A DNA stretch of 64,000 bases, from the NCBI RefSeq assembly GCF_000455125.1, contig NZ_AUWR01000022.1:29710-93709 (forward strand), given 5' to 3'. Origin of the DNA: Mycobacterium sp. UM_WGJ. Its GTDB lineage: Bacteria; Actinomycetota; Actinomycetes; Mycobacteriales; Mycobacteriaceae. Each line of letters opens with the position of its first letter. Position 1 is the first letter of the stretch. Under the pieces are notes generated by a model. That model was not told where the DNA came from. It did not search any database and was given only the letters and a program-made list of their open reading frames with translations. Shown here piece by piece: positions 6,792 through 36,150 of this stretch. A program made the position numbers and the translations under genes.

Positions 6792-6871
6792 TCCGCTACC
6801 GCGGCGAACAACGCGCCGAGCTGACAATGACGCGCTGCACTCCCCGACCGTGCTGGGTACGTTCTACAGTC

Positions 6872-9800
6872 GTGCCCTCACTGCAAGTCCCCGCGCAATA
6901 TCTGCGCGGCTCCTCGGCGCCGCAGCCCCGCACCCTGATCGACATTCTGCAAGAGACCGCCGCCCGCTACCCCGACGCTCCCGCCATCGACGACGGCAAT
7001 GTGGTGTTGACCTACGGGGAGCTGATCGAGGACATCACCGACAGTGTCGCCTGGCTGGCCGCCCGCGGTCTGGGCCGCGGCGATCGCATCGGCATTCGGA
7101 TGCCGTCCGGCAATTACGCGCTGTACGTGGCGATCCTGTCCACGCTGGCCACCGGCGCGGCCTACGTGCCGGTGGATGCCGACGATCCGCCCGAGCGCGC
7201 CGAGCTGGTGTTCAACGAAGCTCAGGTGGCGGCGGTGATCACCGAACAGGGTTTGACCCGCGGCCCCGGCGCGTCACGCGGCTGGCGGGCCACGGCGCCG
7301 CAGACCAGCGACGACGCCTGGATCATCTTCACCTCGGGGTCCACCGGAACCCCGAAGGGCGTGGCGATCACGCACCGCAACGCGGCGGCCTTCGTCGACG
7401 CCGAAGCCCAGCTGTTCTTGCAGGACAACCCGATCGGGCCCGGCGACCGGGTGCTGGCGGGACTGTCGGTCGCGTTCGACGCGTCCTGCGAGGAGATGTG
7501 GCTGGCGTGGCGCTACGGCGCCTGTCTGGTGCCGGCGCCGCGGTCGCTGGTACGCAGCGGCATGGACCTGGGTCCGTGGCTGGTGTCGCGCGACGTGACC
7601 GTGGTGTCCACCGTGCCCACCCTGGCGGCACTGTGGCCGGCCGAGGCGCTGGAGGCGGTGCGGCTGCTGATCTTCGGCGGTGAGGCCTGCCCACCGGAGC
7701 TGGTAGCCCGGCTGGCGGTGGAGGGCCGCGAGGTATGGAACACCTACGGCCCCACCGAGACCACGGTGGTGGCGTGCGCGGCGCAGCTCGACGGCACCGG
7801 CCCGGTCCAGATCGGGTTGCCGCTGTTGGGCTGGGACCTGGCCGTGCTCGGGCCCGACGGGGCCCCGGTGGCCGCCGGCGAAGTCGGCGAGCTGGTGATC
7901 GGCGGTGTCGGCTTGGGCCGCTACCTGGACCCCGGCCGTGACGCCGAGAAGTACGCAGCACTGCCCGAGCTGGACTGGCCGCGGGCCTACCGCAGCGGTG
8001 ATCTGGTGCGGCTGGATGCCGACGGGCTGGTGTTCTGCGGCCGGGCCGATGACCAGGTCAAGGTCGGCGGCCGGCGCATCGAGCTGGGTGAGGTGGACAG
8101 CGCCCTGGTGACGCTGCCCGGCGTCAGCGGCGGTGCGGCCGCGGTGCGGACCAGCGCCGCCGGGACCCCGCTGCTGGTCGGCTACCTGGCCAGCACCGAT
8201 CCGGACTTCGACCTGGGTGCTGCACGCGCCGCACTGGGCCGGCGACTGCCCGCCGCGCTGGTTCCCCGGCTGGTGCTGGTCGACGAACTGCCCACTCGCA
8301 CGTCGGGCAAGGTGGACCGCGATGCGCTGCCGTGGCCGGTGGGGCCGGAGCCGGGTGCCCTGCCCGGCGGAGGTCTCGGCGACGACCCGGACAGCACTCT
8401 GGGTTGGCTGGCCGGACTGTGGCGCGACGTGCTGGGCGCCCCGGTCGACGACGAACAGGCCGATTTCTTCGCGCTCGGCGGTGGATCGCTGCAAGCCGCT
8501 CAGCTGGTGGCCGCGGTGCGGCAGCGGTACCCGCAGACCACCGTCGCCCAGCTCTACGACCGCCCACGACTCGGCTCCCTGGCCGGGTTTCTCGACGACA
8601 TGGGCCGCAGTGAGCCCGGGGCCGAGGCAGCCTCCCGCGCGGTCGAACCCACGCCCCGGCGGGCCCAGGCCGCGCAGGTGCTGCTGTCGGTGCCGCTGGC
8701 CACGCTGACCGGGCTGCAATGGGTGACGTGGCTGGCGCTGATCAACAACGTGATGGCGGTGATGCATCCGCTGCCCTGGCTGGCGCGACTCGACTGGTGG
8801 TGGGTGATCTCCGCTTTCGTACTGTTCGTGACACCGCTGGGCCGGATGGGTATCGCCGCGCTGGGGGCGCGTGCGCTGCTGTCCAATCTGGCGCCGGGAA
8901 CGTACCGGCGCGGCGGCCCCGAGCACCTGCGGGTCTGGATCGCCGAACGGCTTGCCGCCGCCAGCGGCGCCGAGAATCTTTCCGGCGCACCGTGGCTGGT
9001 GTATTACGCGCGAGCGCTGGGTAACAAGATCGGCGAGGGCGTGGATCTGCACTCCGCCCCGCCGGTGACCGGGATGCTGACCCTGGGCCACCGGTGTTCC
9101 ATCGAGCCGGAGGTGGACCTGACCGGGCATTGGATCGACGGCGATACGTTCCACGTCGGCCCTGTCACGGTTGGCAACGACGCCACGATCGGTGCCCGCA
9201 CTACGCTGCTGCCCGGCGCCGTAATCGGCAAGGACGCCGATGTCGCGCCTGGGTCCGGGGTAGTCGGCGAGGTGAAGAAGGGCCAGTACTGGACCGGCTC
9301 GCCGGCGGTGAAATCCGGTAAGGCACACCACCCCTGGCCGGATCACCGGCCACCGCCGCGCCCGGTGTGGGCGGCGGTGTACGGGGTGACATCGATCCTG
9401 CTGGGCGGCTTGCCATTGGTGGCATTGGGTGTCGGGCTGTCGGTGGTGGGCTGGGCGGTGCGGGACTGCACCACGCTGATCGAAGCGATTCGGCCTGCGG
9501 CGCTGGCCACTGCGCCGGCCGCGCTGGTCGCGATGCTCAGCTACGCCGCTTTGACCATGGCCGGGGTGCGGCTGTTGTCGATCGGGCTGCGCGACGGCTA
9601 CCACCCGGTGCGCAGCCGGGTGGGTTGGCAGCTGTGGGCCACCGAACGTCTGATGGACGCCGCGCGCGACTATCTCTTCCCGGTGTACGCCAGCCTGATC
9701 ACGCCGTGGTGGCTGCGCTTACTGGGGGCCAAGGTAGGCCACGGCACCGAGATCTCCACCGCGCTGGTGATCCCGAAGTTCACCACGATCGCCGACGGCG

Positions 9801-10798
9801 CCTTTCTCGCCGACGACACCATGGTGGCCTCCTACGAATTGGGCGGCGGCTGGATCCACGTCGCACCGGCCACCATCGGCAAGCGCGCATTTCTGGGCAA
9901 TTCCGGGATCACTCAGCCGGGCAGGCGGGTCCCCGACAACTCCTTGGTGGCAGTGCTGTCGACGGCACCGCATAAGGCCAAGACCGGCTCGTCGTGGCTG
10001 GGCAGCCCGCCGGTACGCCTGCGGCGTAAAGCCGCCGACCTCGATGCCGAGCGCACTTTCGAACCCCCGCTGCGGCTGAAGCTGATGCGCGCCGTCATGG
10101 AGACATTCCGGCTGATCCCGGTCATCGTCACATTTGCCATCGGAACCGCGGTTTTGGGCGCGTTGCAGTGGGGGGTGACAAGGTTCGGCTACGGCTGGAC
10201 CGCGCTGGGGAGCGGCGTCACGCTGCTGGCCGCCGGTGCGGTGGCCGGCAGCAGCGCGGTGGTGGCGAAATGGCTTATCGTGGGCCGGATCCGGGCGTCA
10301 CAGCGCCCGCTGTGGTCGTCGTTCGTGTGGCGCAACGAGGTCTCCGACGCGTTCGTCGAAACGGTGGCTGCCCCGTGGTTCGCCCGCGCCGCAACCGGTA
10401 CCCCGGTGATGAACCTGTGGTTGCGGGCGCTCGGCGCCACCATCGGCCGCGGCGTGTGGTGCGAGACGTACTGGTTGCCCGAAGCCGACCTGGTGACGCT
10501 GGACACCGGCGCGACGGTGAACCGCGGCTGCGTGGTGCAGACCCACCTGTTCCACGACCGGATCATGCAGATGGACACGGTGACATTGGATGCAGGGGCC
10601 ACGCTGGGCCCCAACTGCGTGGCGCTGCCCGCGGCCCGGCTGGGCGCCGGTGCCACCGTCGGGCCGGCCTCGCTGGTGATGCGCGGCGACGAGGTCCCGG
10701 CCGCGACGCGCTGGCAGGGCAATCCGATTGCGCCGTGGCCGGTGTCGGGCAAGAAGCGCGGGGCTTCGGCTGCCGCGCGTCAGGAGCCCGCGGCATGA
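6872..10798 (+). CDS. Pls/PosA-like membrane nonribosomal peptide synthetase (A-T plus three beta-helix domains)
   Basis: This single-module synthetase has about 1308 residues. An adenylation domain fills residues 20-490: IIFTSGSTGTPKG near 150, NTYGPTETT near 290, YRSGDL, and RTSGKVDRD near 476. A carrier domain follows with LGGGSLQ, whose Ser at about 539 takes the phosphopantetheine arm. There is no condensation or thioesterase domain. Instead, groups of membrane helices alternate with three left-handed beta-helix (hexapeptide) domains near residues 740-815, 955-1045 and 1190-1290. This matches the plan of epsilon-poly-lysine synthetase Pls, whose three tandem domains make the isopeptide chain. 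I chose the GTG at 6872 because the protein similarity begins there; an ATG at 6827 is possible. The amino acid substrate is not known. The stop overlaps the aminopeptidase start. Confidence 0.85.
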   Translation: MPSLQVPAQYLRGSSAPQPRTLIDILQETAARYPDAPAIDDGNVVLTYGELIEDITDSVAWLAARGLGRGDRIGIRMPSGNYALYVAILSTLATGAAYVPVDADDPPERAELVFNEAQVAAVITEQGLTRGPGASRGWRATAPQTSDDAWIIFTSGSTGTPKGVAITHRNAAAFVDAEAQLFLQDNPIGPGDRVLAGLSVAFDASCEEMWLAWRYGACLVPAPRSLVRSGMDLGPWLVSRDVTVVSTVPTLAALWPAEALEAVRLLIFGGEACPPELVARLAVEGREVWNTYGPTETTVVACAAQLDGTGPVQIGLPLLGWDLAVLGPDGAPVAAGEVGELVIGGVGLGRYLDPGRDAEKYAALPELDWPRAYRSGDLVRLDADGLVFCGRADDQVKVGGRRIELGEVDSALVTLPGVSGGAAAVRTSAAGTPLLVGYLASTDPDFDLGAARAALGRRLPAALVPRLVLVDELPTRTSGKVDRDALPWPVGPEPGALPGGGLGDDPDSTLGWLAGLWRDVLGAPVDDEQADFFALGGGSLQAAQLVAAVRQRYPQTTVAQLYDRPRLGSLAGFLDDMGRSEPGAEAASRAVEPTPRRAQAAQVLLSVPLATLTGLQWVTWLALINNVMAVMHPLPWLARLDWWWVISAFVLFVTPLGRMGIAALGARALLSNLAPGTYRRGGPEHLRVWIAERLAAASGAENLSGAPWLVYYARALGNKIGEGVDLHSAPPVTGMLTLGHRCSIEPEVDLTGHWIDGDTFHVGPVTVGNDATIGARTTLLPGAVIGKDADVAPGSGVVGEVKKGQYWTGSPAVKSGKAHHPWPDHRPPPRPVWAAVYGVTSILLGGLPLVALGVGLSVVGWAVRDCTTLIEAIRPAALATAPAALVAMLSYAALTMAGVRLLSIGLRDGYHPVRSRVGWQLWATERLMDAARDYLFPVYASLITPWWLRLLGAKVGHGTEISTALVIPKFTTIADGAFLADDTMVASYELGGGWIHVAPATIGKRAFLGNSGITQPGRRVPDNSLVAVLSTAPHKAKTGSSWLGSPPVRLRRKAADLDAERTFEPPLRLKLMRAVMETFRLIPVIVTFAIGTAVLGALQWGVTRFGYGWTALGSGVTLLAAGAVAGSSAVVAKWLIVGRIRASQRPLWSSFVWRNEVSDAFVETVAAPWFARAATGTPVMNLWLRALGATIGRGVWCETYWLPEADLVTLDTGATVNRGCVVQTHLFHDRIMQMDTVTLDAGATLGPNCVALPAARLGAGATVGPASLVMRGDEVPAATRWQGNPIAPWPVSGKKRGASAAARQEPAA

Positions 10799-12144
10799 GC
10801 AAACCCACGAAGATTTCGGCAAAGCCAGCCAAGGCCCCGGCGCCTGTTCTTGACCCCTATCTGCCCGACAGCGGCAACAGCGGTTACCGGGTCTCGCGCT
10901 ACGAACTCGACCTGGAGTACAAGGTCAGCAGTAACCGGCTCTCGGGCACCGCGACCATCACCGCGGTCGCGCTGGACGCACTGCGCGAGGTCACCCTCGA
11001 CCTTGCCGACACGCTGTCGGTGGCCAAGGTCTGGGTCAACGGTCGCCCACCCAGCCGGTTCGCGACCTCGGCAGCCAAGCTGCGGATCACCCTGGCCGCC
11101 ACGGTACCGCCCGGCGCCGCACTGGTGATCGTCGTCCGGTATGCGGGATCACCGCGCCCCAGCGAAACGCTCTGGGGTGAAGTGGGTTTCGAGGAGTTAT
11201 CCGACGGAGCGCTGGTTTCCGGCCAGCCCAACGGCGCACCGTCATGGTTCCCCTGCGACGACCACCCCTACTCAAAAGCCAGCTACCGGATCCAGATCAG
11301 CACCGACAGCCCGTACTACGCGGTGGCTAACGGCGAACTGATATCGCGGCGTGCCCGGGCCACCCGCACCACCTGGACCTACGAGCAGCCCGAGCCGACC
11401 CCGACCTATCTGGTCACCCTGCAGATCGGCCGGTACGTGACCCGCCGGTTGCCGGGCTCGACGGTGGCGATCCGCGCGGTGCTGCCGGCCCGGCTGCAGG
11501 CCGAGTTCGAACAGGACTTCGCCGCGCAGGCACAGATGATGGAGCTGTTCGTGCGCCTGTTCGGGCCCTACCCGCTGGCAGCCGGCTACACCGTGCTGGT
11601 GACCGACGACAACCTAGAGATCCCCCTTGAAGCACAGGGGCTTTCGATCTTCGGCGCCAACCACTGCGACGGTACCGGGGGGTCCAACCGACTGATCGCC
11701 CACGAACTGGCCCACCAGTGGTTCGGCAACAGCGTCACCCTGCGACGCTGGAGCGATATCTGGCTGCATGAGGGGTTCGCGTGCTACGCCGAATGGCTGT
11801 GGTCGGAGCATTCCGGTGGGCCGAGCGCCGACCAGCTGGCGCGGCGTTATCACCGCCAGCTAGCGGGCCTGCCGCAGGATCTGCTGTTGGCCGATCCCGG
11901 GCCGGCCGACATGTTCGACGACCGGGTGTACAAGCGCGGCGCGATCACCCTGCATCAGTTGCGCGGCCGGCTCGGTGACGACGCCTTCTTCGCCCTGCTG
12001 CGGGACTGGACGTCGCGCTACCGCCACGGCAACGCCGGCACCGAAGACTTCACCGCGCTGGCCGCCGGATACGCGGGCGAACCGCTGCAGTCCTTGTGGC
12101 AGGCCTGGCTGTATTCCACTGCGGTGCCCCCGCTGACCAGCTGA
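10795..12144 (+). CDS. M1-family zinc aminopeptidase
   Basis: This protein of 449 residues has the gluzincin signature HELAHQW at residues 303-309, with the third zinc ligand Glu at about 326 in WLHEGFACYAEW. EAQGLSIFG near residue 280 stands in the position of the GxMEN exopeptidase motif. It has the N-terminal beta domain and the catalytic domain only; the helical C-terminal domain of full-length PepN-type enzymes is missing. No signal peptide is visible; the first 20 residues are Lys/Pro/Ala rich. The ATG overlaps the synthetase stop (ATGA), so the two are translationally coupled. In that context it could trim, release or degrade the synthetase product, or protect the cell from it. That role is inferred. 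Confidence 0.88.
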   Translation: MSKPTKISAKPAKAPAPVLDPYLPDSGNSGYRVSRYELDLEYKVSSNRLSGTATITAVALDALREVTLDLADTLSVAKVWVNGRPPSRFATSAAKLRITLAATVPPGAALVIVVRYAGSPRPSETLWGEVGFEELSDGALVSGQPNGAPSWFPCDDHPYSKASYRIQISTDSPYYAVANGELISRRARATRTTWTYEQPEPTPTYLVTLQIGRYVTRRLPGSTVAIRAVLPARLQAEFEQDFAAQAQMMELFVRLFGPYPLAAGYTVLVTDDNLEIPLEAQGLSIFGANHCDGTGGSNRLIAHELAHQWFGNSVTLRRWSDIWLHEGFACYAEWLWSEHSGGPSADQLARRYHRQLAGLPQDLLLADPGPADMFDDRVYKRGAITLHQLRGRLGDDAFFALLRDWTSRYRHGNAGTEDFTALAAGYAGEPLQSLWQAWLYSTAVPPLTS

Positions 12145-13372
12145 GGTCGAAGTCGACGACCAGCGCGGCCGGCACCGCCAGCGCTACCGGGGTGAACATC
12201 TGCGAGTCCTGTTCTCCGGCAATGCCGGTGAGGACCCGGCCGCCGTAGCCGTCGTCGGTACCGGGAACCGTGACGCGTACCCGCGCCGACGCCGCACCCG
12301 GGCGCGGGCGCAGGTAGAAAACGCTGCCCGGCTCCACCGGACCGGTCAACTCGTTGCCGTCGTCGTCCAGCAACACCGCACCCTCGGCGCTCAGGGCGGC
12401 AGAGTCGGCGACGGACAGGCGCAGCGGGCCCACCAGACCGTCGGCCACGGTGGCCGACGAGACGTTCAATCCGGGTGCGGTGGAGCGCGCCCGTGCCGCA
12501 CCGGCCAGCAGATACCGGTAGAGGGCCACGATGCGGTCGGCATTGCGATAGGTGCTGGTGCCGTTGAGCCAGAAGTCGACGTCGCCGAGCGTGGCCGATG
12601 GCCCCGGCCCGGCCACCGACAGGCGGTAGAACCGGTGGCCCCCGACGGTGGCACCCACGCCGAGCGCCTTGCGATGAGCGCCGGCGGCCGGGGCGGCCAG
12701 CCGCGACGAGGGCACCTCCCGCCAGCTACGGCCGTCGTCGGACTTGTGCAGGGTCAGCGTCACCGGCTCCGAGGCGACCAGTTCCAGGGTGTAGCCGCCC
12801 AACTCGAGGGCCTCTTCGAACTCGACGGTCACCCCGTCGGCGTCGCGCAACACCCGGACCGGCTCGGTGCGGGCGCGGGTGTCCAGCTCCAGACCGTTGG
12901 TGAGCCGCCAGATCGCGGCCTGGGTGGCGGCTATCGCCTCGTGCTCGGTGATGTTGCCGCGGCCCAGCTGGTGGCCGGCCGCACGCAGTCGACGGCTCAA
13001 TTCGACGGTGGTCAACCGTGGAACCGAGTTGCGCAGGATCCAGTCGACTTGAACTTCGCGGGGGTCACGGGCACCGGAGCGCAGGTTCGGAACCGCCGAC
13101 CAGGTGTCGATCCGGTAGGCCGACGGCCGGGTGGGGGCGATGCCGTGGAAGTCCAGCGAATAGGCCGCGATACCGGGATTCAGGCGAATCAGATCGGTGC
13201 GCGCGCTGGTGCCGTCGGTGAACACGATCCGGTCGACGGTGTGCGAATAGGTACCGCCGTGATAGCGGGTCATTCGGTCGATGTCGACGGCCGGGCGCGG
13301 TTGCACCCTGCGCCGGACGGTCACCGTGGGCTCGGTGTCGAGAAGAGGAAAAACGGAGGTTGAAACGGTCAT
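12050..13372 (-). CDS. TQXA (thioester) domain protein without cysteine
   Basis: Residues about 33-165 match the actinobacterial TQXA thioester domain: RYHGGTYSHTVD, RTDLIRLNPGI, VDWILRNS, and EHEAIAATQAAIWRLTNG holding the T150-Q151 pair. In surface-adhesin thioester domains a Cys in a YC motif bonds to that Gln. Here the matching place reads AYSLDF with Ser72, and the whole 440-residue protein has no Cys. No signal peptide, membrane anchor or LPxTG motif is visible, so it is probably cytoplasmic. The C-terminal two thirds are beta-rich with no fold that I recognise. It is divergent from the encapsulin operon across a 294-base gap, and its last 31 codons overlap the aminopeptidase gene convergently. 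Its function is unknown. Confidence 0.75.
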   Translation of the reverse strand: MTVSTSVFPLLDTEPTVTVRRRVQPRPAVDIDRMTRYHGGTYSHTVDRIVFTDGTSARTDLIRLNPGIAAYSLDFHGIAPTRPSAYRIDTWSAVPNLRSGARDPREVQVDWILRNSVPRLTTVELSRRLRAAGHQLGRGNITEHEAIAATQAAIWRLTNGLELDTRARTEPVRVLRDADGVTVEFEEALELGGYTLELVASEPVTLTLHKSDDGRSWREVPSSRLAAPAAGAHRKALGVGATVGGHRFYRLSVAGPGPSATLGDVDFWLNGTSTYRNADRIVALYRYLLAGAARARSTAPGLNVSSATVADGLVGPLRLSVADSAALSAEGAVLLDDDGNELTGPVEPGSVFYLRPRPGAASARVRVTVPGTDDGYGGRVLTGIAGEQDSQMFTPVALAVPAALVVDFDLSWSAGAPQWNTARPATRTAAVRPRIRRPAR

Positions 13373-13467
13373 GCCGAGTCGACTTTCTGGTCTGAAGCGC
13401 GCACGGCAGCATCTCGCCGAAGAAAGGGAGCGGGCTGCGACGCGGAGGAATCAGGGCGTCAGAGAAT

Positions 13468-13485
13468 CAACAACAACAACAACAA
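13468..13485. repeat. six CAA trinucleotide repeats
   Basis: A (CAA)6 tract lies in the 294-base gap between the divergent TQXA and encapsulin genes, about 95 bases before the TQXA start. Trinucleotide runs can vary in length by slippage and so alter promoter spacing; nothing here proves that. Confidence 0.8.
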
Positions 13486-13620
13486 CACGCGGCGAGGCGG
13501 CACAAAGCGTGCGGCTGTGGCAGCGTGATGTTCGACATACACATACCCTACGACATGTACCGCAGCGGCGCGAACTGCGAGGGATTCAATTCGCCCTGAG
13601 CGCAACTGGTGGGCAAACCC

Positions 13621-13632
13621 GGACCATGGTCC
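13621..13632. promoter_or_regulatory. 12-bp perfect palindrome before the encapsulin gene
   Basis: GGACCATGGTCC is a perfect palindrome ending 34 bases before the encapsulin ATG. A TACCCT sequence resembling a -10 box lies about 80 bases further upstream. The palindrome could be an operator for a sulfur or stress regulator. The start codon itself is preceded by a strong ribosome site, AGGAGG, six bases away. Confidence 0.35.
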
Positions 13633-13666
13633 ATGATTGGCGCCGTCACTCATCAGGAGGAAAGCA

Positions 13667-14590
13667 ATGACGTCCGCTCAGAACGAATCTCAGGCGCTCG
13701 GGGACCTCGCCGCACGGCAACTCGCGAATGCGACCAAGACCGTCCCGCAACTGGCCACCATCACCCCGCGCTGGCTGCTGCACCTGTTGAACTGGGTCCC
13801 CGTCGAAGCCGGTATCTACCGGGTCAACCGGGTGGTCAACCCCGGCCAGGTCGCCATTGCAGCCGAGCAGGGCGCCGGTTCGCAGGAGCCGCTGCCGCAG
13901 ACGTTCGTGGACTACGAGACCAGCCCGCGGGAGTACACCCTGCGGTCGATCTCGACCCTGCTGGATGTGCACACCCGGGTCTCTGACCTGTACTCCAGCC
14001 CGCACGACCAGGTCGCACAACAGCTGCGACTCACCATCGAGACCATCAAGGAACGCCAGGAGTACGAGCTGGTCAACAACCCGGAGTACGGCCTGTTGGC
14101 GCAGGTCACACCGGAGCAGACCATCTCCACGCTGACCGGCCCGCCCACCCCCGACGACCTGGACTCGCTGATCACCAAGGTGTGGAAGACCCCCGGGTTC
14201 TTCCTGACCCACCCGCTGGGGGTGGCCGCGTTCGGCCGCGAAGCCACCCGCCGCGGGGTCCCGCCGGTAGTGGTGAACCTGTTCGGCGCCCAGTTCATCA
14301 CCTGGCGCGGCATCCCGATCGTGCCGAGCGACAAGGTGCCGGTAGAGGATTCCAAGACCAAGATCCTGCTGGTGCGCACCGGGGAGGAACGCCAGGGTGT
14401 CGTCGGGCTGTTCCAGCCCGGCCTGGTCGGTGAGCAGGCGCCGGGCCTGTCAGTCCGGTTCACCGGCATCAACCGGTCGGCGATCGCGTCTTACCTGGTC
14501 ACGCTGTACAACTCGCTGGCCGTGCTCACCGATGATGCGCTCGCCGTGCTCGACGACGTCTCGGTGGACCGTTTCCATGAGTACAAGTGA
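13667..14590 (+). CDS. family 2A encapsulin shell protein (SrpI / major membrane protein I type)
   Basis: This 307-residue protein has the HK97 phage-capsid fold of the encapsulins and should self-assemble into a hollow shell. Residues such as ATITPRWLLHLLNWVPVEAG, YRVNRV, RSISTLLDVHTRVSDLYSSP (E-loop and N-arm region), EYELVNNPEYGLL and PGFFLTHPLGVAAFGREATRRG match the SrpI/MMP-I group, long known as a 35-kDa major antigen in M. leprae and M. avium. It lacks the inserted cyclic-nucleotide-binding domain of family 2B, so it is 2A. AGGAGG precedes the start. Its last 14 bases overlap the desulfurase start, which fixes the stoichiometric link of shell and cargo. M. tuberculosis H37Rv has lost it (recalled). 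Confidence 0.92.
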   Translation: MTSAQNESQALGDLAARQLANATKTVPQLATITPRWLLHLLNWVPVEAGIYRVNRVVNPGQVAIAAEQGAGSQEPLPQTFVDYETSPREYTLRSISTLLDVHTRVSDLYSSPHDQVAQQLRLTIETIKERQEYELVNNPEYGLLAQVTPEQTISTLTGPPTPDDLDSLITKVWKTPGFFLTHPLGVAAFGREATRRGVPPVVVNLFGAQFITWRGIPIVPSDKVPVEDSKTKILLVRTGEERQGVVGLFQPGLVGEQAPGLSVRFTGINRSAIASYLVTLYNSLAVLTDDALAVLDDVSVDRFHEYK

Positions 14591-16229
14591 TCCCGGGCCG
14601 GTAACCCCACCGGTCAGCGCCGCTGAGCTGGAGGTACTGGCCAACCAGCTGTATGCCGCCCGGCCCGGTCCGGACTCGCCGCCGCAGACCACCGCGGTGG
14701 CACCGCGCGGCGGCGTGCCCGACCCGTCGGGGCTGCTGCCGCCGGGGCTGGCCGACCTGTCGGCGTTCGCGGTGCCGAGCGGCATCGTGCCGACCGTGCC
14801 GGGGGTGCTGGCCGGCTCGCCGGCCGGGGCTGTCCCGGTTGCGCCACGTGGGTCGGCTCCCGGCTGGCCCGGGGGCGTGCCGGTGGTTCCGCAGCTGGAT
14901 TGGCATGACACCGCCGCGCCGGCCGCGGGTGGCGACGAGGCGAACTACGCCTTCTTGTCGCATCGGGTGCCGGCAGCCCAACCGGCTCCGACGGTGCCGG
15001 ACTCGCACGAAGTCTTCGACGTCAACGCGGTGCGCGCTGACTTCCCGATCCTGCGTGAGACGGTCAACGGCAAACCGTTGATCTGGTTCGACAACGCCGC
15101 CACCACGCAGAAGCCGCAGGCCGTGATCGACCGGCTGTCGTACTTCTACGCCCACGAGAACTCCAACATCCACCGGGCGGCTCACGAACTGGCCGCCCGC
15201 GCCACCGACGCCTACGAGGACGCCCGCGACACCGTGCGGCGATTTCTGGGTGCGCCGCGCAGCGAGGACATCATCTTCGTGCGCGGCACCACCGAGGCGA
15301 TCAATCTGGTGGCTTACGCCTGGGGCGGCAAGAACCTGCGCCCCGGCGATGAGATCGTCATCACTCACCTGGAGCACCACGCCAATATCGTTCCGTGGCA
15401 AATGATCTCGAAGAAGACCGGGGCGATTCTGAAGGTGGCCCCGGTGGACGAGGCGGGCAACCTGCTGCTGGGCGAATTCGAGGATCTGCTGGGCCCGCGG
15501 ACCAAACTGGTTGCCGCCACCCATGTCTCCAACGCGCTGGGCACCGTCACGCCGGTGCACGACATCGTCGAGCTCGGGCACCGCTACGGCGCTCGGGTGC
15601 TGATCGACGGGGCACAGTCGGTCCCGCATATCCCGATCGACGTGCAATCGCTGGGCGCGGACTTCTTCGTGTTCTCCGGGCACAAGATCTTCGGTCCCAC
15701 CGGTATCGGAGTGCTCTACGGCACCGCCGAGGCGCTGGCCGAGACGCCGCCGTGGCAGGGTGGAGGCAACATGATCGCCGACGTCACCCTGGAACGCTCC
15801 ATTTACCAAGATCCGCCGAACAAGTTTGAGGCGGGCACTGGCAACATCGCCGACGCGGTCGGTCTGGGTGAGGCCCTGCGCTATGTGGAACGGGTGGGCA
15901 TCGAGCGCATCGCCGCCTACGAGCACGCCCTGCTGGAGTACGCCACGCCACGCCTGGCCGATATTCCCGGGGTGCGGCTCGTCGGCACAGCCGACGAGAA
16001 GGCCAGTGTGTTGTCGTTCGTGCTGGCCGGCCACGAGCCGTTGGAAGTGGGCAAGGCGCTCAATGCCGAGGGCATCGCGGTGCGTGCCGGGCATCACTGT
16101 GCGCAGCCGATCCTGCGCCGCTACGGCCTGGAAGCCACCGTGCGACCGTCGTTCGCGTTCTACAACACTTTCGAAGAGATCGACGTCTTCACCCAGGCCG
16201 TACGGCGCATTGCTGAAGGGAGCGCATAG
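14577..16229 (+). CDS. encapsulin cargo cysteine desulfurase (SufS-like) with N-terminal loading domain
   Basis: This 550-residue enzyme has two parts. Residues 1-145 are Pro/Ala/Gly rich and disordered, with short conserved-looking islands: [14 protein letters not shown] at 14-28, [16 protein letters not shown] at 54-69 and YAFLSHRVP at 124-132. In characterised family 2A systems this extension docks the enzyme inside the shell. Residues 146-550 are a class V, group II (SufS/CsdB) aminotransferase fold: [24 protein letters not shown] with the PLP-binding Lys370, and RAGHHC with the catalytic Cys508. It converts cysteine to alanine and a persulfide. The start overlaps the shell gene by 14 bases in another frame. 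Mature SufS homologs are about 400 residues, so the extension is the extra part. Confidence 0.93.
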
Positions 16230-16263
16230 CACCTATGGCGGCCTTGGTAGGAAAGGGCATTTG

Positions 16264-17199
16264 ATGGGCAGGATCTACGACAACGTCACCGAGCTGATCG
16301 GCCACACACCGCTGGTGCGGCTCAACCGGCTGACCGAGGGACTGGGCGCTCAAGTGGCGGCCAAACTCGAGTTCTACAACCCGGCCAACAGCGTCAAGGA
16401 CCGCATCGGCGTTGCGATCATCGATGCCGCGGAGAAGTCCGGCCAGCTGCGCCCCGGGGGCACCATCGTCGAGGCCACCAGCGGCAACACCGGCATCGCC
16501 CTGGCGATGGTCGGTGCCGCTCGTGGCTACAAGGTGATCCTGACCATGCCGGACACCATGTCCACCGAGCGCCGGGTGATGCTGCGCGCCTACGGCGCGG
16601 AGATCGTGCTGACGCCCGGCTCCGAGGGCATGGCCGGCGCGGTGGCCAGGGCCAAGCAGATCGTTGCCGACACCCACAACGCCCTGTCCGCAGACCAGTT
16701 CGCCAACCCGGCCAACCCGGCCATCCACGAACGGACGACCGGCGAAGAGATCTGGAAGGACACCGACGGCGCGGTCGACATCTTCGTCGCCGGCATCGGT
16801 ACCGGTGGCACGCTGACCGGCGTCTCGCACACCCTGCGGGCCCACAAGCCCGAGGTCCAGATCGTCGGCGTGGAACCCAAGGACTCCGCGATCCTGCACG
16901 GCGCCGACCCCGGTCCGCACAAGATCCAGGGCCTGGGCGCCAACTTCGTCCCCGAGGTACTCGACCGCGACTGTTACGACGAGATCATCGACGCGCAATT
17001 CGACGACGCCATCCGGGTTGCTCGCGCGCTGGGCACCGAGGAAGGGATCCTCGGCGGAATCTCGGCCGGCGCCAACGTGTGGGCCGCCCTCGAGCTGGCC
17101 AAGCGCCCCGAGAACGCCGGGAAGCTGATCGTGGTGGTGGTCCCCGACTTCGGCGAGCGCTACATCTCCACGCCGCTGTTCGAGCACATTCGGGAATGA
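16264..17199 (+). CDS. cysK: O-acetylserine sulfhydrylase (cysteine synthase A)
   Basis: This PLP enzyme of 311 residues makes cysteine from O-acetylserine and sulfide in the cytoplasm. The PLP Lys45 sits in [24 protein letters not shown] at about 75-87 binds the substrate carboxylate; [13 protein letters not shown] near 178-190 grips the PLP phosphate. Full length for the CysK family. A ribosome site, AGGAAAGG, lies nine bases before the ATG. It sits 34 bases after the desulfurase gene and overlaps cysE by 4 bases, so it belongs to the encapsulin operon. It is the same gene pair as M. tuberculosis Rv2334-Rv2335 (recalled), which there stand without the encapsulin. Confidence 0.94.
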
Positions 17200-17795
17200 T
17201 CACACCTATGAGTGGTGTGTTGGCGCGGCTGCGCGAGGACCTGCGCAACGCGCGCGAGCATGACCCGGCCGCGCGCGGGGACTTCGAGAACGCGCTGGTC
17301 TATTCGGGTCTGCATGCGATCTGGTCGTATCGAATCGCGCATCGGCTGTGGGCCAGGCCGGCACTGCGCGGGGTGGCCCGCCTGCTGGCTCAGGCCACCC
17401 GATTCGCCACCGGCATCGAGATTCACCCGGGCGCGACCATCGGGCGGCGGTTCTTCATCGACCACGGCATGGGCGTGGTGATCGGCGAGACCACCGAGAT
17501 CGGCGATGACGTCATGGTCTATCACGGCGTCACCCTCGGCGGACGTTCGCTGAGTCACGGCAAGCGCCACCCGACCATCGGTAACGGTGTCACGGTGGGC
17601 GCCGGCGCGAAGGTCCTCGGTCCTATCACCGTCGGAGACGGCAGTGCGATCGGCGCCAATGCCGTTGTCACCCAGGATGTTCCGGCGGATTGCATCGCCA
17701 CCGGAATCCCGGCTGCGGTGCGCCATCGCACCGAGAAACAGCGGGAGCCGCTGGTGGACCCGACCAGTTACATCGACCCGGCGATGTACATCTAA
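17196..17795 (+). CDS. cysE: serine O-acetyltransferase
   Basis: This protein of 199 residues transfers acetyl from acetyl-CoA to serine, giving the O-acetylserine used by CysK. An N-terminal helical part ([18 protein letters not shown]) is followed by a left-handed beta-helix from about residue 70: [44 protein letters not shown], cut here into hexads, with the catalytic His in IDHG and the acetyl-CoA site in the late coils. It is the short EpsC/Cys4-like form, lacking the long N-terminal domain of enterobacterial CysE. The ATG overlaps the cysK stop; an ATG 12 bases later is an alternative. It closes the encapsulin operon, and converges on the methyltransferase gene. Confidence 0.93.
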
Positions 17796-34637: not shown

Positions 34638-34733
34638 AAAAAAGACGACCCCCGCCAGGGGGGGGAGGAGGCGGAGGTCGTCGCGTATCAACCCCGGGGG
34701 GTCGGGCCGATACACCCTCAGCATAAGCCGAGT
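34638..34733 (-). ncRNA. 6C small RNA (B11)
   Basis: The minus strand carries a -10 box TATAGT at 34745-34740 and then an RNA of about 96 bases with two hairpins. The first pairs GTATC with GATAC and shows CCCCCC in its top part. The second pairs GACGACCTCCGCC with GGCGGGGGTCGTC around a loop with eight C and ends in TTTTTT, a clear Rho-independent terminator. Two C-rich loops define the actinobacterial 6C family, and M. tuberculosis B11 lies at this same place between Rv3660c and Rv3661. 6C pairs with G-rich ribosome sites of many mRNAs. Ends are estimated to within a few bases. Confidence 0.85.
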
Positions 34734-35849: not shown

Positions 35850-36150
35850 ACGGAAGCCGGTAAGGCCAGGGTCGACCCGGAAGAGAAGGATCGATCTCCC
35901 GAGCCGCACTTCCCAGTACGGAGAGCGGTACCCACGCGGAGCCACAGCCGCGAAGATGGCAGAAGTGTTGCGGGCCTGCGTAATTGCGGAACGTGATCGG
36001 TGTTGCCAACCCTTTGGGTGGGGTTGCAGCCGAAGAACACCGCAGGAGCGCCGAGGCCACCCACGCAGCCCAAGTTGGACGCTTGGTAACCGTGTACCGT
36101 GCTAGCGGGCGGCGAGCCGAATCATTCGGAGCGCCGCCCGCTTCGTTAGT
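35850..36150 (+). ncRNA. Ms1/MTS2823-type RNA-polymerase-binding small RNA
   Basis: About 436 bases between the HAD gene and the next gene hold no credible protein. A promoter fits TTGCTG, 17 bases, TACAAA, ending at 35843. About 300 bases on, AGCGGGCGGCG pairs with CGCCGCCCGCT around an inner CCGAAT/ATTCGG stem, giving a large terminal hairpin (36104-36142) followed by TTCGTTAG. Length, strand and position between the Rv3661 and Rv3662c orthologs match MTS2823/Ms1, an abundant stationary-phase RNA that binds core RNA polymerase. The identification rests on position and architecture, not on an alignment. Confidence 0.75.

Follow-up and report, generated by a model that had tools for sequence, protein, structure and literature searches.

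A family 2A encapsulin operon with cysK and cysE faces a TQXA-domain gene and its polycysteine leader in a Mycolicibacter genome

The locus described here bears on the role of family 2A encapsulins in mycobacteria. It lies in a 64-kb stretch of DNA from Mycobacterium sp. UM_WGJ (the whole of this stretch is called the window) and carries four genes, for an encapsulin shell, for a SufS-like cysteine desulfurase as its cargo, for the O-acetylserine sulfhydrylase CysK and for the serine O-acetyltransferase CysE. Other family 2A systems store elemental sulfur. In leprosy the mycobacterial shell is described as a strong antigen, and from M. avium subsp. paratuberculosis it was obtained in company with the desulfurase (PMC8049743). 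Why do genes of cysteine synthesis accompany a shell and a desulfurase? The original prediction took CysE and CysK as dedicated feeders, by which cysteine is made at the shell and its sulfur channelled into it; the gene facing the shell gene and its polycysteine leader had no part in that prediction. The comparison presented here points to a different answer: the locus is probably a cysteine-sensing divergon that couples cysteine synthesis and enclosed desulfuration to a TQXA-domain partner encoded on the facing strand. Gene content, constant divergent order, a polycysteine open reading frame (ORF), its pairing potential and a sulfur-poor shell can be read directly from the sequence.

The gene facing the shell gene and its polycysteine leader

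The locus comparison comprises the best 80 of 382 confirmed named shell loci, on each of which the window genes were placed, and is complemented by surveys of 248 genomes of the genus (shell match at E ≤0.001) and of 298 genomes of the order (2A model cut-off). A gene for a TQXA/thioester-domain protein is adjacent to the shell gene and divergent from it in 79 of the 79 loci with enough DNA for scoring (L037 starts near a contig end). The desulfurase gene follows the shell gene in 77 of the 80 loci; the stretches of L052, L056 and L077 end less than 300 bases from the shell gene. Within the genus 91 genomes were shell-positive and every one of these 91 has a TQXA match, while the other 157 genomes yielded four TQXA matches, all partial. 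Among the shell-positive genomes G105, G241, G184 and G089 hold shell fragments only and the shell of G076 is split in two. Across the order 14 genomes scored above the 2A cut-off, namely 12 members of the genus, in each of which TQXA matches along nearly its whole length, and two from other families, both without it; 47 further genomes match the 2A model below the cut-off. TQXA, cysK-cysE and a polycysteine ORF were absent within 15 kb at the two non-mycobacterial 2A loci (G276, G323), which consist of shell and cargo genes.

The product of the facing gene matches TIGR03934 (TQXA_dom) with 48.4 bits at a cut-off of 30.4 and PF08341 (TED) with 34.2 bits at a cut-off of 22. The Thr-Gln of the TQXA motif is invariant in 28 aligned rows, with Gln151 as the glutamine. 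At the expected thioester position no cysteine was seen in these rows (by eye, the position being judged from the motif), and neither a signal sequence nor a wall anchor was evident by eye in the alignment, no signal predictor having been run. Since the thioester cysteine is missing and a signal sequence is not evident, the protein probably does not function as a thioester adhesin. Among solved structures it matched only 2xi9/4bug, ANCILLARY PROTEIN 1, at an E value of 0.51. It might act as sulfur acceptor, as release factor or as shell-binding protein.

Several loci have an unusual organization. In G241 (L116, 1847-3430, minus strand) a long transporter-like ORF next to TQXA, which by eye resembles a permease, carries encapsulin residues 1-35 as an in-frame fusion; this N-terminal piece recurs next to the desulfurase gene at another place in the genome, and a shell body was not found. 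The same piece is present at contig ends in G184 (L119, L120), again with no shell body found. G098 encodes two shell-desulfurase copies (L123, L124), with TQXA and the polycysteine ORF at one only. In L126 (2719-4534, G206) the desulfurase match is divided into two pieces in different frames, which may reflect a frameshift that separates the arm from the catalytic domain.

The gap between the shell and TQXA genes contains a leaderless short ORF on the TQXA strand. It was scored in a set made up of the window and 79 loci, requiring a start codon 4-8 bases past a TAnnnT element and at least three cysteines in the last nine residues, and was present in 80/80, as against 3 of 4000 dinucleotide shuffles. 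An ORF of this kind on the shell strand of the same gap was searched with the same rule and rejected (0/80), and within the window the ORF is the sole one of its kind. Its product of 23 residues ends in six cysteines. The start codon is ATG in 79 cases and GTG in one, the stop codon is TGA in 80/80, and the start codon spacing of 6 or 7 bases from TAnnnT and the ending in cysteine codons, as in polycysteine leaderless attenuators, are seen in 80/80.

Leaderless short ORFs with clustered cysteine codons were described as conserved among mycobacteria, and attenuation by them was put forward as a hypothesis (Shell 2015, PMC4633059). For other mycobacterial genes a cysteine-responsive attenuator has been described (PMC9031893, PMC9094748, PMC13236596), and these papers cite Canestrari 2020 for a test of the attenuator in M. 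smegmatis. One could alternatively suppose that the short ORF encodes a functional cysteine-rich peptide, e.g., a sulfur acceptor, for which a length of 21-25 residues in 76/80 loci and a middle part similar in many loci (by eye) would speak. However, the cysteine codons are biased to TGT (TGT 333, TGC 96; in five window genes 5 and 24), the ORF fits the published attenuator class and the RNA of its 3' end appears fitted to the TQXA ribosome-binding site, which leaves a functional peptide very improbable.

This match is a predicted pairing of the 3' end of the ORF and the bases that follow it with the ribosome-binding region of the TQXA gene, and it contains one mismatch in the window. Over 70 distinct pairs the binding energy was -11.9 kcal/mol for own and -10.5 kcal/mol for foreign partners, and 0 of 5000 permutations were as low, bearing in mind that the permutations ignore kinship and that some partner segments are poorly placed. 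Changes on the two sides correspond: TCCTG occurs with CAGGAA in 23/27 loci, and TTCTG or CTCTG with CAGAAA in 25/40.

The shell itself is poor in sulfur: counted on aligned proteins, it is free of cysteine in 75/81 loci and of internal methionine in 80/81, and a single cysteine is present in the cargo in 73/78. Background ORFs contain on average 1.97% cysteine plus methionine (592 ORFs, of which 17 have none), and at this rate the chance that one 306-residue shell is free of both is 0.0023, a value that does not multiply over the 81 shells, as these are related and hence not independent. CysK and CysE of the window show no such depletion. The two non-mycobacterial 2A shells hold six Cys/Met residues each, the aligned chains 8t6r and 6x8m have several and the closest, 9ksl, has one cysteine and one internal methionine (by eye), and for this reason the depletion looks derived in mycobacteria. 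Such a composition would be advantageous for a protein made under sulfur shortage.

The cell's own cysK-cysE pair

A protein search of the own assembly returned one CysK at 100%, the next best being 45% identical, and a second CysE was absent save for two weak partial matches; three further desulfurase-like genes reach 46% at best. Because these are the only close CysK and the only CysE of the genome, cysK-cysE are the cell's own cysteine-making pair rather than extra feeders. The 134 genomes with a CysK match at E ≤1e-100 have exactly one each.

For a supply dedicated to the shell speak the tight gene order, with a cargo-cysK gap of 34 bases in the window, of 0 in L083 and a one-base overlap in L016, the fact that cysK-cysE are linked to shell loci in both of two distant lineages of CysK, and the C-terminal isoleucine of CysE in 60/61 loci, window included, which we take as a fit for a CysK/CysE complex. 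Against it stand not only the sole close pair but also the persistence of cysK-cysE in two relatives without a shell (G150, G016) and the 32 of 80 loci without cysK in the available stretch. The feeder model as originally stated is therefore rejected, and we give it little probability.

The position of cysK varies. It is on the cargo strand in 8/80 loci (six named Mycolicibacter as well as L084 and L089), behind TQXA and on the TQXA strand in 36/80 (L038 partial, L051 broken), slow growers where the species is named, and ~9 kb from the shell in 4/80; in the remaining 32/80 it was not found in the available stretch, four stretches being short. The four-gene order is therefore one of several; in Mycolicibacter cysK-cysE come after the cargo gene. 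A tree of 39 of the 61 CysK rows (13 of the 35 TQXA-side rows), with a very distant outgroup, separates type A (window, Mycolicibacter, fast growers) from type B (TQXA-strand loci, L084, L128) by a long branch with a support of 99/100, the bootstrap not having settled. Linkage to shell loci is seen for either type, with type A on the strand of the cargo gene and type B on that strand or the TQXA strand; CysK of the window is ~62% identical to CysK of M. leprae-type loci. A second kind of short ORF ending in cysteines (ALIAVG..AVADV..CC at the end) was seen in L024, L033, L045, L114, L115 and L126, either within ~6 kb of cysK or between cysK and the shell gene.

The close relatives G150 and G016, which have no shell match and a CysK that is 95-96% identical, keep cysK-cysE before the downstream genes known from the window, and G016, unlike G150, shares the upstream neighbours as well. 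Remnants of the cargo gene of 80 and 41 bases (87-90% identical) stand directly before cysK, from which it follows that these relatives lost shell and cargo, perhaps through a single event. A recent gain of the shell beside cysK-cysE was considered and rejected for the G150/G016 lineage, in which this cargo relic is kept. In G105 shell, cargo and TQXA are decayed, and in G233 the shell is gone and relics of cargo and TQXA are left; in both the leader ORF and cysK-cysE remain.

These relatives also bear on the view that the genes are merely co-located, i.e., that a resident cysK-cysE with its own promoter inside the cargo gene has no functional coupling to shell, cargo or TQXA. That G150 and G016 retain the pair with overlapping short cargo pieces would fit such a promoter, as long as it does not reflect one shared deletion, and an uninformative promoter/terminator scan leaves room for it. 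Linkage in both CysK lineages and at two positions, cysK behind TQXA and leader in 36/80 loci, and a leader ORF that persists with cysK-cysE at loci whose shell gene has decayed or disappeared (L121, L122) argue in the other direction, so that we regard mere co-location as unlikely.

The proposed switch and its weak points

How a cysteine-sensing divergon could work is outlined in the following. The shell would enclose the desulfurase, which would remove sulfur from cysteine, and the cysteine would be supplied by CysE and CysK, made with shell and cargo from the right-hand transcript. This operon would be one half of the divergon; the other half would be the TQXA gene, whose transcript would open with the leaderless polycysteine ORF. 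With ample cysteine the ribosome would pass the leader, the 3' end of the ORF would mask the TQXA ribosome-binding site by base pairing and TQXA would be off. With little charged cysteine tRNA the ribosome would stall at the cysteine codons, the site would be freed and TQXA would be made. At loci with cysK-cysE behind TQXA the same switch could raise both, while in Mycolicibacter both genes lie on the shell side. The switch itself, as well as an action of TQXA on the shell or its sulfur, is inferred.

A number of observations weigh against this explanation. The leader ORF rule was fixed after a first, looser look, in which ORFs with a pair of neighbouring cysteines also turned up here and there on the shell strand of some loci. 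Own segments pair better than the foreign mean in only 49/70 types, the pairing changes track clades, a recognised partner motif is missing in 9/80 loci, and the whole leader of the window does not fold unusually well (z -1.39; 19/200 shuffles as good). In the present genome the leader is not on the strand of cysK-cysE, and the shell strand is without an ORF of this kind, so that a cysteine control of the operon itself is unsupported. In 32 of the 80 loci cysK was not found in the available stretch, and 25 of the 91 shell-positive genomes have no CysK match at 1e-100. Finally, a 2016 paper mentions a uORF before the TQXA-domain gene MAB_0219 of M. abscessus, which may be another gene than the encapsulin-facing one (PMC4974804).

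A more far-reaching version is tentative and in our view doubtful: a thioester-domain protein that lost its thioester may have been recruited as a cytosolic shell partner, induced by cysteine starvation, that releases or receives stored sulfur, with the leader turning the whole locus into a cysteine-sensing device for storage and recall and the sulfur-free shell costing hardly any sulfur to build. Already the simpler divergon would have consequences. The conserved candidate cysteine sensor on the facing strand is a testable handle from which the conditions for production of the partner can be predicted, and with TQXA, matched in all shell-positive genomes of the genus, a candidate partner protein can be named. 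The sensor offers a reason for the presence of cysK-cysE at the locus in two lineages and at two positions, and the feeder model is corrected in that the locus carries the cell's own cysteine-making pair.

The operon, its position and comparison with known systems

The features of the locus are collected in Table 1. The original prediction of a complete family 2A operon holds, as all four products score above the cut-offs of their curated models, the reading frames are open and all lie on the plus strand. Its 14-base overlap of shell and cargo genes is confirmed, and so is the 4-base overlap of cysK and cysE, provided that cysE starts at the first ATG, a second in-frame ATG being 12 bases past it.

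Table 1. Features of the encapsulin locus in window coordinates
Feature	Positions	Strand	Basis
TQXA/thioester-domain protein, 440 aa, no Cys	12050..13372	-	TIGR03934, PF08341, locus survey, alignment
TQXA ribosome-binding region, predicted paired with 13460-13471	13378..13389	-	RNA pairing prediction
3' end of short ORF and following bases, GUUGAUUCUCUG, predicted pairing partner	13460..13471	-	RNA pairing prediction
Leaderless polycysteine short ORF, 23 codons and stop, upstream of TQXA	13467..13538	-	Locus survey, shuffles
-10-like element TAGGGT, 6 bases before the short ORF ATG	13545..13550	-	TAnnnT with 6- or 7-base spacing in 80/80
Shell gene ribosome-binding site AGGAGG	13655..13660	+	Identical in 7 aligned Mycolicibacter rows
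Family 2A encapsulin shell (SrpI / MMP-I type), 307 aa, no Cys, no internal Met	13667..14590	+	NF041162, PF19307, PDB matches
SufS-like cysteine desulfurase cargo, 550 aa: N-terminal arm of ~140 aa and catalytic domain	14577..16229	+	NF041166, PDB 8kg1
cysK, O-acetylserine sulfhydrylase, 311 aa	16264..17199	+	TIGR01139, own-genome search
cysE, serine O-acetyltransferase, 199 aa, C-terminal Ile	17196..17795	+	TIGR01172, own-genome search

The shell matches NF041162 (encap_f2a) with 504.8 bits at a cut-off of 380; the 2B shell model is also above its cut-off (414.8 versus 400), but across residues 60-301 only. It has a single Pfam domain, SrpI-like, and lacks the cNMP domain of 2B, as is the case for members of 2A, and its closest solved relatives are the MMP-I structures 9ksl and 8wol (E ~1e-180). 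The adjacent desulfurase, as is typical of 2A, matches NF041166 (f2_encap_cargo1) with 851.4 bits at a cut-off of 800, its closest solved desulfurase being 8kg1. Across 18 aligned cargo rows Lys370 and Cys508, the roles of which we assign by analogy with SufS, are invariant, and the N-terminal arm has conserved short motifs. CysK and CysE reach 446.8 bits against TIGR01139 (cut-off 350.95) and 231.9 bits against TIGR01172 (cut-off 210.65), respectively. By these matches the operon belongs to a known family and its CysE is an accessory gene of an already reported kind. A single transcript of the four genes, desulfurase loading and sulfur storage would be expected. A scan for sigma-70 consensus promoters and terminators between the operon genes gave nothing informative, and Rfam at the gathering threshold returned no match at the locus. 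Upstream of the shell gene a block at 13580-13640 is conserved in the seven Mycolicibacter rows, in which a known regulator site was not recognised and which includes a possible -10 element, CATGAT (13632-13637).

The five best named shell matches are Mycolicibacter species (97-99% identity), and the host classifies as a Mycolicibacter. The operon is followed by tRNA-Thr, DNA polymerase III delta' and topA. Between the latter two is an ORF that matches no NCBIfam model and that we take to be cyclase-like. This placement differs from that of the M. leprae-type locus, and the downstream genes are consistent with the claimed Rv3636-Rv3643 position. A plasmid origin was rejected, since only partial matches of 60-80% identity in 10 records were obtained. 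Elsewhere in the window, Ms1 small RNA (35850-36149, plus strand) and 6C RNA (34640-34716, minus strand) are above their Rfam gathering scores, and a gene similar to Pls/PosA-family non-ribosomal peptide synthetases (6827-10798, plus strand) is located 5' of an aminopeptidase-like gene.

No paper tying an encapsulin to a thioester/TQXA domain or to a polycysteine leader was found, and as far as the literature was searched the proposed divergon, with its sensing of cysteine and its degenerate TQXA protein, is an undescribed variant. Its parts nevertheless resemble known systems. CysK1-CysE, which we take to be Rv2334-Rv2335, shares the equivalog cysK and cysE and the C-terminal isoleucine of CysE, whereas the pair of the window sits behind a desulfurase gene. 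TQXA/thioester-domain surface proteins have in common with the facing protein the TQXA_dom and TED matches and the invariant Thr-Gln, while the encapsulin-facing protein has neither the thioester cysteine nor an evident signal (by eye). With the family 2A encapsulin/desulfurase systems, i.e., SrpI of Synechococcus elongatus and MMP-I of mycobacteria, the locus shares the curated 2A models and the long cargo arm, and it differs from the two non-mycobacterial 2A loci in the divergent TQXA gene with its polycysteine leader and in a shell free of cysteine and internal methionine. For 2A systems an enrichment of serine O-acetyltransferase genes as accessory genes was reported (PMC8346489), and for S. 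elongatus a response to, and induction by, sulfur starvation (PMC8049743). The polycysteine leaderless attenuators before cysA2, nirA and Rv0485 likewise have a leaderless short ORF with clustered cysteine codons; in contrast to these, the first gene behind the leader described here is a TQXA-domain gene that is divergent from an encapsulin gene.

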